Source of the DNA: Planctomycetales bacterium
Lineage (GTDB): Bacteria > Planctomycetota > Planctomycetia > Pirellulales > Pirellulaceae
Direction: 5' to 3'
DNA length: 64,000 nt
NCBI GenBank assembly: GCA_020427005.1
Contig: JAGQOY010000012.1
Location: 1 to 64,000 of the forward strand
Made by a program: the position numbers and the translations under genes. Below, one piece after another: positions 1 to 38,400 of this stretch; within the stretch, counting starts at the first letter, position 1, and every line of letters begins with the position of its first letter. Under the pieces are notes generated by a model. The model was not told the DNA's origin and ran no database searches. It saw only the letters and a list, made by a program, of their open reading frames with translations.

Positions 1-3000
1 CCTGATACCCCTCGCTCTAGGCTGTACGCGACGATGTTGTTAACCAACAACAAATGAGAATTGTTGCCAGCGGAAACACCGGTTGAGTTGTGTACAAGGG
101 TGTTGTTGGCTAATAGGAGCTCAGTAGCAACTCCAGAGACACCCGTCGCATTACCCTCGAACACATTGTTGAAAGCGTTGACGGTGGAGCCGGACACCAC
201 AGTCAGGCCCGTTGATCGTTGATTCTGAATGTAGTTCCCAACAATGTTCGCTTTGGCTGATTCGATGTAAATACCGTTCAGGTTTGAATTCAAGACATTG
301 CGATTTACGGACATTTCCGCGCCAGAACCGGCTGCAATCCCTACACCCAGATTATCAGAAAATACACAGTCAGAAACTGCAATGATAGACTGATTGATTG
401 CTAACAGACCCGCCTGAGCAGATCGCTCAATGGTCGTATTTTTTATCTCACCCATGGCGCCGTCGGCAACAATGGCTGCTCCGTAGAAATGCCCGCCATA
501 GGTTAGGCGAGCATTTTCGATAAGATTATCGATACTTCCGGAACGCAAGTAGATTCTTGGCCAATTTCCAGGTCCAGGCAGGGTTGCATTTCCGTCGCCA
601 TTGCTATCACCGCCTTGGGTGTCATCGGCAACTGACGTAAAAATAACTGGCTGCGATGGAGTACCAACAATGTGAAGAGAGCCGTCCACAAATAGTTCCG
701 CGCCGCTGTGAGCGGGTTTTACGATTTGTCCTGGGCGGATTTCCAGCACAAGGCCCTGTGGAACAGTGATGTCGTCATTTAGCAAGTAAACGATCTCTGG
801 ATTATCCCACACGAGGTTCTTGCCCATCGTGCCAGAATCCACTTGTAGCGCATTTTTCCCATTGCCCAACATCGTTGCGCCAACAATGGTGGGTGAAGCT
901 TTCAAGTCCATACTGATCGCTGCACCGGCGTTATCTCGATAGGTATTGCCGATTAATTGTGCGTCGGTAGCCACTAATCGCACGGCATCCCAGGCGCTAC
1001 TAGCAATTGTACTGTGAGTAATTGTCAGGTCGGTATCTTGAGCTAATAGTGCATTACCAACAAAATGTCCTCCATAATGCGATTCCATGTAATCAATCGA
1101 ATTGCCTACACTTTTATCACGCAATACGATGCGACCCCAACTTCCACGAAAGGGAAGCGTAGCGTCTCCATCACCATTGCTGTCCCCGCCATGCGTGTCA
1201 TCTGTAGCGGCAGTAAAGACTACCGGCGCTGCATTGCTTCCGGAAACTAAAAGGGCTCCATCGACTGTCAATTCAACACCGGTATGTGCGGGTTTAACGA
1301 TCTGTCCCGCAGTGATCTGCAGCGTCAGCCCTTCTGGAACAAAAACATCGTCGTTCAACCAATAGACGATATCAGGATCGTCCCAAACAAGACTTTTTAC
1401 TAGTGAACCCGAATCGACTTGTAGGGCATTCAGATGATTTCCTGAGACTGTAATTCCAGAGATTTCAGGATTGGAATTCAAATCCATACTGATGGCAGCA
1501 TCACCATTGTTTAGAAATGTGAGGCCATTGATGACGGCATCGGTTCCACTAAGCCGCAACCCATCCGCTGCACTTTCGGCAAACAGACTATTCGAAATCG
1601 CCAACTCCGATTCGAAGGCTTGAAAGCTGTTCCCGACAAAATGCCCGCCGTAATAGCTTTCGAAGTAGCTGACGAGGTTTTCCGTACTTCCAGTTCTCAG
1701 GTTGATGCGTCCCCAATCACCCTTACCTGGGAGGCTGGCTGTACCGTCGCCATTACTATCACCGCCACGAGAATCATCTGCCGAAGAAGTAAAAACGACC
1801 GGTGATTGGGCCAAGCCGACAATCTCCAGGCTGCCGTCAACTAGCAATTCAACGCCAGTGTGACGCGGCTTTACGATTTGACCGGCGTCGATATGCAATT
1901 TCATTCCAAGCGGAACGGTAATATCGTCATGCAACCAATAGACGATGTCAGGATCGTCCCATGTCAACGATTTGCCTAACGTTCCGGAGTCGATTTGCAA
2001 TACGTTTAAGCCGTTTCCAACGGCACTGACACCAGAAATTGAAGGATTGGAATTCAAATCCATACTCATCGCAGCATCAGCGTTGTCGTAAAATGAATTG
2101 CCGATCAGTTGTCCATCGGTTTCCTCTAACCGCAATCCATCCGACGCACTATTGGCAAAGATGCTATTCGAAATCGCTACGTCCGTCTTTTGTGCCAGGA
2201 AGGCCTGGCCGATGAAATGTCCTCCATAATGGGCTTCTAGAAAGTCAATGGTATTTCCTGTGCTAGAATCTCGAAGGTAGATCCTGCCCCAATTTCCACG
2301 CGTAGGCTCTGTCGAATTTCCATTACCATTGGTGTCGCCACCCCGAGAGTCATCATTGGCAGACGTAAATATGACTGGAGCCCCTGATCCCCCCAAGACT
2401 CGGAGAGTTCCATCCACAAAAAGTTCGACACCACTATGGGCTGGCTTAACGATCTGCCCGGCCCGGATTTCCAAAGAATATCCCAGTGGCACGGTGACAT
2501 CTTCACTCAGCCAATAAACGATATCGGGATCATCCCAGATCAGGTCCTTCGAAAGTGCACCGGAATCTACCTGCAAGGCGTTCAATCCGTTGCCAGAAAG
2601 CGAGACTCCTGATATGTACGGGTTGGAGCTAAGATTCATGCTAATGGCTGCGTCCAAATTATCCACGAACGAGTTATTAACCAAATACCCATCCGTTTCT
2701 TCCAAGCGAATCCCGTCGGATGCGCTCAAAGCAAAAATGCTATTGGAAATCGAAACATCCGTACTCTGCGCCAGCAGTGACTGACCAATAAAGTGCCCAC
2801 CGTAGTACGATTGGAGATAGTCAATTGTGTTTCCGGCGCTACTATCGCGCAAAAATATTCTGCCCCAATTCCCCCGGATTGGCTCTGTCGAATTTCCATT
2901 GCCATTGGTGTCACCGCCACGAGTATCATCGCTGGCTGAAGTGAAGATAACGGGGGCGATATTGTTCCCCAAAACTCGAAGAGCACCATCGACGAATAGC

Positions 3001-4406
3001 TCCACTCCGCTGTGTGCGGGCTTTACAATTTGCCCAGCTTCGATTTGCAGCGAAGTTCCGCTGGGAACGGTAATATCGTCATTTAGCCAATAAACAATGT
3101 CTGGATCATTCCAAACCAGATCTTTCCCGACGACACCGGCATCGACCTGTAACGCGTTCAATCGGTTCCCTGAGACCGTGACTCCGCTGATAGTCGGATT
3201 GGAAGTCAAATCCATACTGATGGCAGCATCTGCATTGTCCAGGAACGAGTTGTTGACCAAGTTTCCGTCCGTACCAACCAGCCGAACGCCATCGGATGCA
3301 CTTTGTGAGAATGTGCTGTTAGTGATCACTACGTCCGTGTTTTGAGCTAAAAACGATTGACCAACAAAATGGCCTCCGTAATACGATTCGAGATAATTGA
3401 TCGAATTCCCCGTACTACTGTCCCGGAGGTAAATCCTACCCCAACTCCCAGGAATTGGAGAACTTGTACTGCCGTTTCCGTTGGTATCTCCACCATGGGC
3501 ATCATCGCTAGCGGAGGTAAAGATGACCGGAGCACTACTATCACCCAAAACGCTAAGCGTACCATCGACGTAGAGTTCAACTCCACTATGTGCTGGCTTC
3601 ACGATTTGCCCAGCATCTATGCGCAACGTCCGCCCACTAGGAACGGTAATATCATCGTTTAGCCAATAGACAATTGCGGGATTGTCCCAGGTAACATCTC
3701 TCCCAACAGTGCCAGCATCGACCTGCAGTGCATTCAAACCATTATTCATTAAGGCAACACCGACGATTGCAGGATTAGATTTTAAATCCATGCTCAAGGC
3801 AGCATCACTGTTGTTTTCAAACGTAACGTTATCGATTACGGGGTCGCTGTCTTCAATCCTTACTGCATCCGAGGCAGAATCTGTCAAACGACTGTTTGAG
3901 ATAACTACGGAAGCGCCCAAAGATTGAACCATGGCTCCAAAAAAATGGCCGCCGTACCTTATGTCTAGCTGATCGAGCTGAGCACTTCCTGTAACCTGCA
4001 ATCGGCCCCAGTCGCCTGCATGCGGAATCGATGCATTGCCGTTTCCATTGGTGTCTCCCCCTACATCATCATTCAACGAAGTGATTATGATGGGAGCTAC
4101 CGATGTACCAACGGCCTGAAGTGTTCCCTGCACAAACAAATCCACACCTGTGTTGGCCAGCTTAACGACTGTACCGGCCTGAATGGAAAGTGTTACTCCC
4201 GGTGCAACGGTCACGTCTCCTGTCAGAACTTGAACTTCGTTGTTTGTCCAAGTAGTGTCGGCGTTGAGCGTGCCGGACCAGTTAGCTAATACTCGACGGT
4301 CCTCTAGAGCTTCTAACCAAAGTTGCCTACAGTGAGACTTCGCAGCCAGGATTCTTCTGCGACTTGCAACCCGAGTACGAACACGCGATGGTATGCGTTG
4401 CGACAT
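1..4406 (-). CDS. Giant secreted parallel beta-helix repeat protein, 3' end outside the window
   Basis: The frame is open from an ATG at 4406 to the window edge, so at least 1468 residues are seen and the C-terminus is missing. AGGAG lies 7 bases before the ATG. The N-terminus is basic (SQRIPSRVRTRVASRRR) and is followed by LEALEDRRVLA at about residues 32-42, the planctomycete export-associated signature. After it come degenerate repeats of about 192 residues, each containing a core like DDxxGGDxNGxG, then WGRIxLR and YGGHFxG. Asn-rich stretches near the window start (NNTLVHNSTGVSAGNNSH) resemble right-handed beta-helix rungs. By family analogy this is an extracellular or cell-surface protein; a catalytic function cannot be assigned. 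A beta-helix adhesin or polysaccharide-binding protein is possible. Being a gene is certain; its role is not. Confidence 0.9.
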   Translation of the reverse strand, partial: MSQRIPSRVRTRVASRRRILAAKSHCRQLWLEALEDRRVLANWSGTLNADTTWTNNEVQVLTGDVTVAPGVTLSIQAGTVVKLANTGVDLFVQGTLQAVGTSVAPIIITSLNDDVGGDTNGNGNASIPHAGDWGRLQVTGSAQLDQLDIRYGGHFFGAMVQSLGASVVISNSRLTDSASDAVRIEDSDPVIDNVTFENNSDAALSMDLKSNPAIVGVALMNNGLNALQVDAGTVGRDVTWDNPAIVYWLNDDITVPSGRTLRIDAGQIVKPAHSGVELYVDGTLSVLGDSSAPVIFTSASDDAHGGDTNGNGSTSSPIPGSWGRIYLRDSSTGNSINYLESYYGGHFVGQSFLAQNTDVVITNSTFSQSASDGVRLVGTDGNLVNNSFLDNADAAISMDLTSNPTISGVTVSGNRLNALQVDAGVVGKDLVWNDPDIVYWLNDDITVPSGTSLQIEAGQIVKPAHSGVELFVDGALRVLGNNIAPVIFTSASDDTRGGDTNGNGNSTEPIRGNWGRIFLRDSSAGNTIDYLQSYYGGHFIGQSLLAQSTDVSISNSIFALSASDGIRLEETDGYLVNNSFVDNLDAAISMNLSSNPYISGVSLSGNGLNALQVDSGALSKDLIWDDPDIVYWLSEDVTVPLGYSLEIRAGQIVKPAHSGVELFVDGTLRVLGGSGAPVIFTSANDDSRGGDTNGNGNSTEPTRGNWGRIYLRDSSTGNTIDFLEAHYGGHFIGQAFLAQKTDVAISNSIFANSASDGLRLEETDGQLIGNSFYDNADAAMSMDLNSNPSISGVSAVGNGLNVLQIDSGTLGKSLTWDDPDIVYWLHDDITVPLGMKLHIDAGQIVKPRHTGVELLVDGSLEIVGLAQSPVVFTSSADDSRGGDSNGDGTASLPGKGDWGRINLRTGSTENLVSYFESYYGGHFVGNSFQAFESELAISNSLFAESAADGLRLSGTDAVINGLTFLNNGDAAISMDLNSNPEISGITVSGNHLNALQVDSGSLVKSLVWDDPDIVYWLNDDVFVPEGLTLQITAGQIVKPAHTGVELTVDGALLVSGSNAAPVVFTAATDDTHGGDSNGDGDATLPFRGSWGRIVLRDKSVGNSIDYMESHYGGHFVGNALLAQDTDLTITHSTIASSAWDAVRLVATDAQLIGNTYRDNAGAAISMDLKASPTIVGATMLGNGKNALQVDSGTMGKNLVWDNPEIVYLLNDDITVPQGLVLEIRPGQIVKPAHSGAELFVDGSLHIVGTPSQPVIFTSVADDTQGGDSNGDGNATLPGPGNWPRIYLRSGSIDNLIENARLTYGGHFYGAAIVADGAMGEIKNTTIERSAQAGLLAINQSIIAVSDCVFSDNLGVGIAAGSGAEMSVNRNVLNSNLNGIYIESAKANIVGNYIQNQRSTGLTVVSGSTVNAFNNVFEGNATGVSGVATELLLANNTLVHNSTGVSAGNNSHLLLVNNIVAYSLERGVS
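560..4110 (-). repeat. Seven tandem ~576-bp units inside the giant protein gene
   Basis: The segment encoding the GGD-N-G-G core recurs near 598, 1176, 1752, 2327, 2902, 3479 and 4047, giving spacings of about 578, 576, 575, 575, 577 and 568 bases. Units centred at about 2330 and 2900 are the most alike (both encode RGGDTNGNGNSTEP, with one residue differing shortly after), while the outermost units at about 600 and 4047 have diverged most. This gradient suggests growth by internal duplication. Confidence 0.88.
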
Positions 4407-12288: not shown

Positions 12289-13890
12289 CTAATTTGAAAA
12301 TGCTTTTTCGGCAGTTTCTTTGATTCCCTTGAGATCGAGTTTTCCACTTCCAAGCATAGGAATCTGCTCAACTTCCACAAACCCATCTTCTCCGGGTAGA
12401 TAGATATTGGGCAGCCCGGTGGCCGCCAGTTGTCTCAGAAGCTCGGGCTTCTCTACAGGTAGTTTGGTGTGCAGAACGATTAGCTTCTCTCCTCGTTTAG
12501 GATCTGGAACGCTTGTAACTGCCACACGGACTAACCCCTGATCGTCCATGCCAACTATATCAGTCATGGCTTGTTCGATGAGGATATGCGGTACCATTTC
12601 GCCCCCGATCTTCGAGAAGCGACTCAATCGCCCAGTTAAGGTAACGAAGCCATCCTTGTCAATGAAGCCTACATCTCCGGTTCTATACCAGTCATCGTGC
12701 ATTACCTGAGCTGTTAGGTCAGGTCTTTTATAATATCCCAGCATGACATTGGGGCCGCGAACTTCTAGGAGGCCGGTCTCGCCGACCGGCAGGGGTTGAT
12801 CGCTTTCGATCCCGACAATCCGTGTCTCCACGCGCACGACTGGTTTTCCAATGGTACCTTCCCGGTAGTTCTGTGCGTTTCCACCTCGACACGGTGGGAC
12901 ATTCACCGAAACTAATGGACTGAGTTCAGTCGTACCATAACCCTCGATAGGACGCACTCCAAACGTTTGCTCAAATTCCTCTGCTAATGGAATGGGCATT
13001 TTCTCAGCACCCACGATAACGGTATCCAGCTTAGAGAACTGCTCTTTTTCGACTCGGCGAATGTAGGTGCGAAGAAAAGTAGGTGTGGCTAGCAAAACCG
13101 TGGCTCCAAACTCTCCAGCCAGCTTGCCTATGGGTCGTGCCTCTAAGGGGCTAAAGTGATATACAGCGGAACAGGGAAGTGCCATGGCAGTCCACATGGC
13201 TACTGTGTAACCAAATGAATGAAAGAATGGCAAAACTCCAAGAACCACATCACGTTCGCTTAGATTGATCGCCTGCAAAATAGCATCCACATTCGACTCA
13301 ATATTCCCTAGGGTTAATACGACTCCTTTGGGTTGGCCCGTAGATCCCGACGTGAAAATGATCGTCAAGGGATCATTATGTGTCTTGGAGTCAAGGCCAA
13401 GCCAGCTATGCAGAGAAGTGGCCGAGCGAAAACGGGCATTCAAATATGCAAAGAGCTTGTCACCTACAGTTACTTTGTTTTTGAGATCTTCCATGAACAC
13501 AGTGGGAACACCGACGTCCAAGCCAACCTTATCCAAAAACTTGCGACTAGTAATTACTTGTTTCAGTCCGGCCAACTCACTGCATTGCTTAAGCACCGAC
13601 GAGCTTACCGTGTAATTAAGATTGACCGCAACGCGACCGGTCAAGGAGATTGCCAAGTTTACAGCGGTTGATACAACCGTCGGCGGTAGAAATATGCCCA
13701 CCTGCTGTTCGTCGTGACTGAGCACGTCTCGTTCCAAGCAGCTTCTCAGCGCTAGGATTCGAGTCAACAGATCGATACCTGTCAACTTGGCACCTGTTGA
13801 GTCAGCGATCTTGAATCTTTTCCCACAATCCTTCAACTGTTGAAGCAATCGCAGCGTAACCAATGGCGAAGTGCTATCTAATACGTTCAT
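12289..13890 (-). CDS. AMP-binding acyl-ACP/acyl-CoA synthetase, Aas-like
   Basis: Member of the adenylate-forming superfamily that activates fatty acids with ATP. Visible motifs: the P-loop-like TIIFTSGSTGQPKGVVLT at about residues 173-190, GYGTTELSPLVSVN (motif A5) near residue 320, YRTGDVGFIDKDGFVTLTGR (A7/A8) near 413, and RFSKIGGEMVPH, the form seen in the synthetase half of Aas. Unlike E. coli Aas there is no acyltransferase domain, so this is a stand-alone ligase of 533 residues. The C-terminal Lys of motif A10 is probably the one in GSGKLDLKGI. The substrate (acyl-ACP or acyl-CoA) is inferred only from similarity. It converges on the hypothetical gene at 10905. Confidence 0.85.
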   Translation of the reverse strand: MNVLDSTSPLVTLRLLQQLKDCGKRFKIADSTGAKLTGIDLLTRILALRSCLERDVLSHDEQQVGIFLPPTVVSTAVNLAISLTGRVAVNLNYTVSSSVLKQCSELAGLKQVITSRKFLDKVGLDVGVPTVFMEDLKNKVTVGDKLFAYLNARFRSATSLHSWLGLDSKTHNDPLTIIFTSGSTGQPKGVVLTLGNIESNVDAILQAINLSERDVVLGVLPFFHSFGYTVAMWTAMALPCSAVYHFSPLEARPIGKLAGEFGATVLLATPTFLRTYIRRVEKEQFSKLDTVIVGAEKMPIPLAEEFEQTFGVRPIEGYGTTELSPLVSVNVPPCRGGNAQNYREGTIGKPVVRVETRIVGIESDQPLPVGETGLLEVRGPNVMLGYYKRPDLTAQVMHDDWYRTGDVGFIDKDGFVTLTGRLSRFSKIGGEMVPHILIEQAMTDIVGMDDQGLVRVAVTSVPDPKRGEKLIVLHTKLPVEKPELLRQLAATGLPNIYLPGEDGFVEVEQIPMLGSGKLDLKGIKETAEKAFSN

Positions 13891-35400: not shown

Positions 35401-38400
35401 CTATTGTTCCCAGTTTAGTCTTGCGGGAGGTCGTCTAAATCGATTCCCTTGCTCAACCAACGTATCCATTCCATCTCCGCCGTCAAATAGAACACTTCCA
35501 GAGAAGATGGAATCCACAACTTGCAGATAGTCGTCACCGCCTGAAAGCCCTACACTGACTTCCCCATTAAAAAGACATCGTTCGACAAGTACTCGATCAC
35601 TGATCTCGCCCAGACTTTGGAGGTCAAATGCACCAAAATTCGAGTCCAGTATTCGTGCCACGTTTGATCGAACCAAGTTAGCATCTACAGAGTTACTCCC
35701 GCCAAGTTGAATTCTGGCCAATCCCGGGACATCGACGTTTTGAACGTCAATTTGGCTTCCGCCACCATTGAGCGAAGCGGACAAAAGGGGTGTTGATTTG
35801 TCGATCCTTCTTGTGAAAGAGAGGTCTTGAATCGCGACTTTACCCGCTCCGTGACCGACAAGTCCTATCGAACTGGCCCGATTGCTGCCTACCTCCAGTC
35901 GTACAGGTCCATCAAAGGTCGAACTGGAAACGGAGACATCGCTACCACCACCGGGCGCACGCAGCATTAATATCGGGCTTGATTTATCTATCCACTTTGT
36001 CAGGTGGAGATCCTGGATTTGGGCCTTGCCTGCTCCCATCCCTCCACTAACACCCGTGGCAGAATCGGGAGGAAGAGGTTCGTGCCCCACTTCGATCGAT
36101 ACGCTTCCTTCCACCGTAGCACCGCGTACTCTAACGCGGCTACCACTTCCAGGAGCTTGGATCGCTAGGATCGGTGAGGATTTGTCAATGGCATCTGCTG
36201 TAATAGAAAGATCTCTGACAGATACCTTGCCGGTTCCCAACCCTGAGAATCCAAGCGTACTGGCTTCACTACTTCCAACTTCCAATCGTACTGGACCTTC
36301 GAAGCTGGAATTCGAAAGGGAAACTTCGCTATCACCACCGGGAGCACGCAACAACAATATCGGAGTTGATTTGTCAATCCGCTTATGAAAGTGCAGGTCT
36401 TGAAGGTTGGCCTTACCAGTTCCCATTCCACTTCTAACACCTGATGCAGGATCGGGTGGGCTAGAAGAATCGGCCTCATGTCCGACTTCGATCAATACGT
36501 TTCCTTCTACATCGGCACCCCTAACTCTGACCTCACTTCCACCACTTGGAGCAACTAGCGCCAACACTGGTGAGGACTTATCAAATTCCTTTAATGCAAT
36601 GGCTAAATCGGTTATGGAAACTCTGCTACCGCCACCGGCTGTAAGGCCTCGAGAGCGATGGCTGCCTACTTCCATTCGCACAGGACCCTCGAAGCTAGAA
36701 CTCGAAAGCGAAACTTCGTTGCCTTCGCCCGGAGCACGCAGCATCAATATAGGACTTGACTTGTCAATCCACTTTCTGAAGTGTAGGTCCTGCAAGTGAG
36801 CTTTGCCTGCTCCCATCCCACCACCAACGCCTGTAGCGGCATCAGGCGGACTGGCCTCATGCCCGACTTCGATAAGTACATTACCTTCAACATCGGCGCC
36901 TCGGACTCTGATTTCGCTACCTCCGCCAGGAGCAACAAGTGCCAAAATCGGCGATGATTTGTCTAGGTCAGCTGAAGTAATGGAAATGTCACTGACGGAT
37001 ACTTTGCCTGCACCCTGACCAACAAGTCCCAATGAACTGGCTTCATTACTACCAACTTCCAATCGCACTGGACCTTCGAAGGTGGAACTCGAGACGGAAA
37101 CTTCGCTACCGCCGCCAGGAGCACGCAATAACAATATTGGCGTCGATTTATCGATCCGCTTATGAAAGTGCAGGTCTTGGAGATTTGCTTTGCCAGCACC
37201 TGGACCAGTAGCAACACCGACAACACCTGTAGGATCGGATGGACTGGCGTCATGTCCGACTTCGATAAGGACATTACCTTCGACATCGGCACCTTGGACG
37301 TGGACTTGGCTACCTCCCCCCGGGGCCACTACGGCCAGAATGGGCCAAATTTTGTCAATATGCAGTTTGGAGGATATCGAAATATCACTGACGGAAACTT
37401 TCCCTGCCCCACCGCCAACTAAACCTAAGAAACTGGCTTGTCGGCTACCCACTTCTAATCGCACTGGGCCTTCGAAGCTAGAACTCGCAAGCGTAACTTC
37501 GCTACCTCCACCCAAAGCACGCAACATCAATGAAGGACTTGTCTTATCGACCCACTTCGTAAAGTGCAGGTCCCGGACATGAACCTTGCCAGAACCGCCA
37601 CCGCTGGCAACACCTGAAGAAGGATCGGGTGGACTTGCGTCATGTCCGACTTCGATTAGGACATTGCCTTCTACATCGGCACCTCGGACGCGGACTTGGC
37701 TACCTCCTCCTGGAGCAATTAGAGCCAACATGGGAGATGACTTGTCAATCACTTTGGATGTAATCAGAACATCCTCTACAACAACTCTTCCGGCGCCCTG
37801 CCCTAGTAAGCCCAATGAGCTAGCTTGTCTACTGCCAACCTCTAGGCGCACAGGTCCCTCAAAACTGGAATGCGAAACCGAAACTTCGCTATCACTGCCC
37901 GGTGCCTGCAATCTTAGGATGGGATTGGCTTTCTCGAACCGCCGATACAGGCTCAAATCCTGAATTTTGACTTTACCTGTACCAGAACTTCCGACAACTC
38001 CTGTAGCCGGTTCAGGAGCATAGGCTTCGTGTCCAACCTCGATCAGTACATCCGCCGAAAAACTCGATTGAATAACGTTGACTTCGCTGCCTGAACCCAA
38101 AGCGCGAACAACCATTGCTGGCTCAATCTTGTACGCCTTTCTATCGACGACCACGTTTTCAAAGGTAATGAAATCAGCATGTTCGGCTTCAAGCGCCACG
38201 ACCCTAATAGAATCTTCAACTCGTAGCTGCCGCAAATACACTCGGTCAACGCCATCATCACATCGAAAATCGATTGCATTGAGCGACGTTCGAGGGTTGC
38301 CCTGAACCAGAACTGCATCATTGCCACCTCCTAGCGTCGCCCGGATGCTTGAAACTCCTGACACAACAAGCTGAGTAGTAGCTTGGCCGTTTATGGTAGT

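Follow-up and report, generated by a model that had tools for sequence, protein, structure and literature searches.

The beginning of the window, by which we mean the whole stretch of DNA analysed here (bases 1-64000 of contig C33), raises the question of how a very large repeat protein is built, where it ends and what it is for. The minus strand carries a 1468-residue frame that is still open at the window edge and, since the window starts at C33 base 1, the gene is cut by the assembly at a real contig end, so that the protein does run past the window as the first-pass annotation had said. This frame is the probable N-terminal half of a probably exported protein of about 2,890-2,900 residues. 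The reading we favour, with reasonable but not full confidence, is that of an exported protein in which a beta-helix stalk of seven blocks and its cap would be followed, on a second contig of the same genome (C177), by CARDB, metacaspase-like Peptidase_C14, DUF7619 and dockerin domains, the stalk presenting an exchangeable central module.

Table 1. Features of the repeat gene and of a second repeat gene in the window
Feature	Position	Strand	Remarks
N-terminal 1468 residues of the gene	3..4406	-	start ATG (4404-4406 reads CAT); runs off the contig at base 1
N-terminal basic stretch with RQLWLEALEDRRVLA	4272..4406	-	like export motif RRLxxExLExRxLLA
Unit 1	3690..4250	-	residues 53-239; groups with first units of relatives
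Unit 2	3114..3689	-	192 residues
Unit 3	2538..3113	-	192 residues; in model of units 3-5
Unit 4	1962..2537	-	192 residues; in model of units 3-5
Unit 5	1386..1961	-	192 residues; in model of units 3-5
Unit 6	810..1385	-	192 residues; in terminal-part model
Unit 7, terminal	234..809	-	conserved first half; second half of ordinary helix coils
Last coils before the contig edge	3..233	-	model without confidence beyond residue 1438
Second large repeat protein, 1154 residues	35401..38865	-	export-motif-like QLEQLELRQMLA near the N-terminus; internal period of 396 bases at 36668-37718; motif like EVSVSSSTFEGPVRLEVGS

Anatomy of the array and age of its copies

Three motifs, GGD[ST]NG[ND]G, W[GP]R[IL] and YGGHF, occur seven times each in the window frame. 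The spacing of YGGHF is always 192 residues, that of the GGD motif is 189 once and then 192 five times, and units 2-6 align among themselves without gaps. Shifted by 192 residues, the frame is identical to itself at 51% of positions, compared with at most 9.6% in 1000 residue shuffles; the array is absent from the list of TRF, run with a longest period of 500 bases. The seven units of near-constant length with a conserved core that had been described at first pass are thus confirmed, five of them being exactly 192 residues long, and the constancy of length extends to relatives, in which the unit spacing is 186-197 residues. These findings support the origin of the window array by tandem duplication of a constant-length unit. 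It could be argued that the array, sitting as it does at a contig edge, is an artefact of assembling repeated DNA, but we give this almost no credence: DNA identity between units reaches at most 69%, far from what assembler-made duplicates would show, and the same kind of array is present in relatives from other genomes.

The copies are not recent. Among units 2-6, pairwise identity is 59-77% for protein and 57-69% for DNA, and even the closest pair, units 3 and 4, which had been called nearly the same, agrees in only 77% of residues and 66% of bases. Synonymous sites have reached saturation in each of the ten pairs that units 2-6 form (pS 0.77-0.93), and at the residues that units 3 and 4 share, codon agreement is 0.32, where the gene's own usage would lead one to expect 0.34. 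We therefore reject a recent duplication in this gene, and the earlier suggestion of recent internal copying applies only to relatives, where DNA identity reaches 95% (G166C1 u3-u4), 95% (G199C58 u2-u3) and 93% (G012C93 u2-u5). Because the pS values exceed 0.75, we also considered active codon scrambling against repeats and rejected it: at shared residues the codons agree no less often than if they had been drawn at random according to the gene's usage, and pooled over 21 pairs the agreement is slightly above such draws (788 observed against 729 expected, naive z 2.8). Judged from their codons, the window units are old copies apparently kept alike by selection on the protein, and the young copies in relatives indicate that the family does grow by copying, though not recently in this gene.

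With respect to export, RQLWLEALEDRRVLA matches 8 of the 10 defined letters (counted by hand, by eye) of the planctomycete motif RRLxxExLExRxLLA, described for Rhodopirellula surface proteins (PMC8567305). The Pfam scan at E up to 1 gave no PF07595 row for the window protein, and in the relative L118 this family scored 22.5 bits, under its cut-off of 25.5. From the resemblance of the N-terminus to the export motif, the whole protein is probably exported. Of the first-pass description of a giant surface protein grown by tandem duplication, the large size, the probable export and the growth from a constant unit stand, whereas a location at the surface is something that we infer.

Predicted fold and the end of the array

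It had been stated that the unit matched no nameable repeat family. This does not hold at the level of a broad fold family, since the Pfam profile Beta_helix (PF13229) matches the window frame in seven stretches far over its cut-off (149.6 bits, cut-off 25.9, E 7.4e-44), a result of the kind that had itself been named at first pass as refuting. A match to NosD (PF05048; 59.8 bits, cut-off 23.6) is read as shared fold; the NosD copper protein model TIGR04247 gave 8.1 bits, far under its cut-off of 300, and the protein is not counted as a member. The NCBIfam scan of the window frame returned only rows under cut-off. The PF13229 model describes generic coils (158 positions), whereas in the window protein the coils are organized in a higher-order block of 192 residues that is present seven times.

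From an alignment of 20 three-unit stretches, taken from the window and six other loci, AlphaFold2 predicted units 3-5 as one continuous parallel beta-helix solenoid (mean pLDDT 94.2, pTM 0.90), with no drop of confidence at the unit borders and values of only 75-87 in the neighbourhood of the GGD loop. By the element list, 21 short strands make up the first unit of the model and 21 the second, hence about 7 coils per unit if three strands make one coil. The terminal part (residues 1008-1468; pLDDT 86.4) was modelled as helix to about residue 1424, and its last 30 residues (segment 432-461) lie below pLDDT 50. The leading Foldseek PDB rows were antigen 43, PL6 alginate lyases and other beta-helix proteins, with low TM-scores (0.10-0.41), and re-alignment by VIA placed the alginate epimerase AlgE4 first (Z 17.9, rmsd 5.1 over 307 residues); the VIA table holds many families at Z 14-18, and a family missing from it proves nothing. 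Other top PDB rows were parallel beta-helix proteins such as pectate lyases and tailspikes. Searched against PDB sequences, the unit profile found no convincing relative, its sole match, PilA (E 0.003), being read as chance. The array is thus predicted to be a single right-handed parallel beta-helix, the handedness resting on the PDB matches. The fold of such a repeat-built rod is well known; its building and combination are unusual. The beta-helical autotransporters such as antigen 43 (PDB 4kh3, 7ko9) share the long parallel beta-helix and stand among the best Foldseek rows; however, identity to them is 8-11%, and Pfam reported no autotransporter barrel for the window part or the C177 part.

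In the model the GGD(T/S)NG(N/D)G loop protrudes once per block. Its strict motif is found in 45 of 67 units, compared with 16 of 6700 shuffles, and is therefore not universal. Loops of the D(T/S)NG(N/D)G type bind calcium in dockerins and thrombospondin repeats, and by this analogy the loop is perhaps a candidate calcium site, which is a guess.

Searched with a profile made from six of the window units, relatives whose arrays are not truncated show 3-7 units, their last units being mostly partial matches (e.g., profile positions 1-136 of 192 in L116). In a tree of 67 units from 14 proteins, window unit 1 groups with the first units of four other proteins (92/95, below starred level), unit 7 with the last units of three others (100/94), and units 2-6 group together (99/78), inner units mostly grouping by protein. 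From this tree it looks as if the end units are old and fixed and the inner units multiply. The ends are indeed the least alike, as had been noticed, but this is not simple drift, given that first units go with first units and last with last. It also bears on the number of units, which had been considered unknown: seven is probably the full count, for the frame includes both the last unit and the cap coils, the C177 continuation begins at the end of the cap, and the end units appear fixed with only inner ones multiplying. The total can in this way be answered with fair confidence.

At E up to 1e-30 the unit was found in 8 of 241 genomes of the family and in a draw from the phylum in 2 of 392, the own genome being included in both counts. 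A record scan, in which 8 of 19 candidate stretches were confirmed, yielded relatives in a Rhodopirellula MAG (57% in the best segment), two Lentisphaeria/Victivallales MAGs and a Desulfobacteraceae MAG; Rhodopirellula is a member of Pirellulaceae. In one relative (L119, G164:C3:496000-514000) a stop codon near 13811 separates two frames with the same unit type, and this interrupted beta-helix array is possibly a decaying copy.

Probable continuation on a second contig

DUF7619 was sought throughout the own genome; of the four rows obtained, which fell on two contigs, the highest-ranking lay on C177 (52,415 bases). The last 4.3 kb of C177 hold a 1423-residue minus-strand frame that enters from the contig end (locus L130:4143-8414, minus) and begins with SASFDLRHNDVFNP, which in relatives comes after the helix as its cap sequence (NDVFNP). 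BLAST aligns residues 6-1317 of this frame with residues 847-2136 of the relative L115 as a single match (41% identity), and L115 is a single 2244-residue frame with four units, CARDB, C14, DUF7619 and dockerin. When the post-helix part of another relative, L116, was compared with the own genome, the first and second matches were both on C177 (44% and 33% identity). It is therefore very probable that the window gene continues on C177, the join of the two contigs being one that we infer. No exact overlap of 5 or more bases was found at the C33/C177 junction, and the first 130 bases of C33 have no match to C177. A hand match of the window's last coil to L115 leaves about three residues missing, a number that may shift by one coil because neighbouring coils are alike and the alignment slips, so that the gap is not exactly sizable.

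The C177 frame might instead be a different gene and the window gene continue elsewhere, for example with RHS repeats, as follow the helix in six relatives. The own genome has many frames with RHS repeats, one of which, on contig C14, enters at the contig end; that frame, however, starts with Ig-like repeats and not with a cap, whereas C177 begins at the cap, and the genome's two best matches to the L116 post-helix part both lie on it. The next L116 match, on C288, follows a beta-helix N-terminal part of its own, with one stop codon between. We accordingly consider continuation elsewhere to be very unlikely. Among other contigs considered, C14 and C388 are not favoured, as their frames enter at or near contig ends with Ig-like repeats (by Pfam for C14 only), and C267 (L031) was rejected as it has different short units of about 140 residues. 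The latter, a small contig, carries three of these shorter copies at 9-1430 beside a frame that is RCC1-like by eye, and may be a paralogue or a foreign contig. As a separate observation, large frames rich in RHS repeats number at least seven in this genome (G000), on C14, C111, C122, C166, C266, C388 and C399, several having dockerin-like motifs near the N-terminus.

In the C177 part, Pfam gave matches all over cut-off to DUF7619 (65.8 bits), Dockerin_1 (56.4 bits, cut-off 22.9, in two stretches), Peptidase_C14 (PF00656; 42.6 bits, cut-off 21.4), DUF11 (32.4 bits) and CARDB (26.0 bits). The C14 stretch matches metacaspase-4 and metacaspase-1 in the PDB; the His of HYSGHG and the Cys of DNCFSGG align with the metacaspase-4 His and Cys, which we take to be the catalytic pair of the family, and the Cys column reads A in 6w8r. 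L115 keeps both residues. The caspase family is characterized by a cysteine-histidine dyad, and many prokaryotic metacaspases seem to have extracellular partner domains (PMC3501461). The C14 domain of the C177 part may be an active protease, and it could process its own protein or act outside the cell. Compared with metacaspase-4 (PDB 6w8s), with which it shares the His-Cys pair, this central domain sits in a multi-domain protein of secreted type behind a beta-helix stalk. For the dockerin, a search of the own genome, which is 96.5% complete, with the cohesin family PF00963 gave no match at E up to 0.001; a diverged or missing partner is possible.

A probably exchangeable middle and the proposed role of the stalk

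It seems that what lies between the stalk and the C-terminal domains varies among relatives. We scanned 16 relatives with beta-helix arrays for domains, some of them cut or trimmed (L036 is without start, L080 cut by the locus end, L084 trimmed and the array of L119 stop-interrupted); two further scans, one of L122, which is cut at a contig end and lacks a C-terminal part, and one of the paralogue L032, are not counted among the 16. RHS repeats form the central or later content in six (L033, L081, L036, L078, L079, L121) and carboxypeptidase-regulatory arrays in another six (L084, L080, L117, L118, L119, L125), while L115 has C14, L035 has CARDB with Big_5, and L116 and L082 have nothing named between the outer domains. 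DUF7619 is present in 12 of the 16 and Dockerin_1 in 8 (one under cut-off), neither being in all. At an E limit of 1e-40, the C177 part found matches in 32 of the 241 genomes of the family, the own included. With the best 2 candidates per genome scored and rows counted by hand, which makes the counts lower bounds, there were at least 44 matches outside the own genome; at least 32 fell in residues 939-1420, C-terminal of the caspase, at least 11 in residues 2-604, N-terminal of it, and at least one (G164:C5) crosses the caspase region. The stalk-caspase arrangement in a single frame is thus found in at least one other genome among the 241. This pattern would be expected of an exchangeable middle between conserved flanks; a merely fast-evolving middle could give the same pattern, but the different Pfam families in the middles of relatives argue against it. 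At the very C-terminus of L081, L082, L115, L116 and L118/L119 there is an LAxDVxxxW-like motif, in several soon after the dockerin. It occurs at 6 different C-termini among 145 stop-ended frames of 400 or more residues (duplicates included), the C177 frame being without the W form, and is a possible sorting signal.

How the stalk might have been built and what it might do can be put as follows. Each 192-residue unit would comprise a whole number of coils (about 7, each of 3 strands) and could thus duplicate as a block without breaking the phase of the helix, so lengthening the stalk; that whole-coil duplication keeps phase would explain the constant unit length. Seven such blocks would give a rigid stalk, closed by the terminal unit and the cap. 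With a rise of about 0.48 nm per coil in a beta-helix, 49 coils would make it about 25 nm long. Its likely job would be to hold and present the central module away from the cell surface, and we see the stalk as a carrier because the same stalk and C-terminal parts bear other central modules in relatives. Only tentatively do we go further and envisage a display platform, with the metacaspase held about 25 nm off the cell on a block-counted rod and the cargo (protease, RHS shell or Ig-like array) being exchangeable.

It is also possible, though doubtful, that the units themselves are the working part, a multivalent surface that binds polysaccharide or another ligand as an adhesin would, and not a mere spacer. 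The self-associating antigen 43 and the PL6 alginate lyases among the best Foldseek rows, AlgE4 at the head of the VIA table and the same exposed loop kept in each unit would suit this. But the PDB rows share only the fold, with 6-15% identity besides the low TM-scores, and, Beta_helix and NosD aside, the Pfam scan of the window part put no adhesive or lyase family over its cut-off. The fibrillar adhesins likewise have tandem stalk domains that bear another domain (PMC8286594); here the stalk-like repeats are present, whereas no known adhesive domain was found by Pfam in the window part or the C177 part. A weapon of the polymorphic-toxin type, with the stalk bringing a toxin or protease to adjacent cells, is in our view unlikely. 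It would draw on the RHS-bearing relatives and on the caspase, which the PADLOC caspase model matches at E 6e-16, and a 2012 survey places caspase-like domains in polymorphic-toxin systems as processing peptidases or toxins (PMC3482391). Yet neither the window part nor the C177 part contains an RHS repeat by Pfam, the caspase is central and not C-terminal, the frame adjoining the gene on C177 appears only as an unannotated ORF, no immunity gene came to notice, and the relatives with carboxypeptidase-regulatory arrays show no named toxin domain.

Large extracellular proteins with an N-terminal beta-solenoid, Giant1-4, have been described in Apilactobacillus kunkeei (PMC12863079). The rod repeats of Giant1-3 are alpha-helical in that description, whereas in the window protein the beta-helix itself is the repeated rod. 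Planctomycetes have many genes over 5 kb, many of which are said to encode surface proteins and whose use is unknown (PMC5177795); the repeat and architecture reported here are not described in the part of that study available to us. Titles and abstract beginnings of the open PMC literature held no description of the 192-residue unit or of the arrangement, a weak negative. The fold and the modular secreted protein type are known; this variant is set apart by a block of exact length, end units that stay fixed, a middle that is exchanged and a metacaspase carried on the stalk. If our reading is true, it would provide a simple rule for lengthening a solenoid rod, by whole coils, a constant block and fixed end units, different genomes having copies of every age. 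There would then be a planctomycete protein set in which cargo domains are swapped behind a common stalk, and one class of planctomycete giant genes would gain a testable anatomy.
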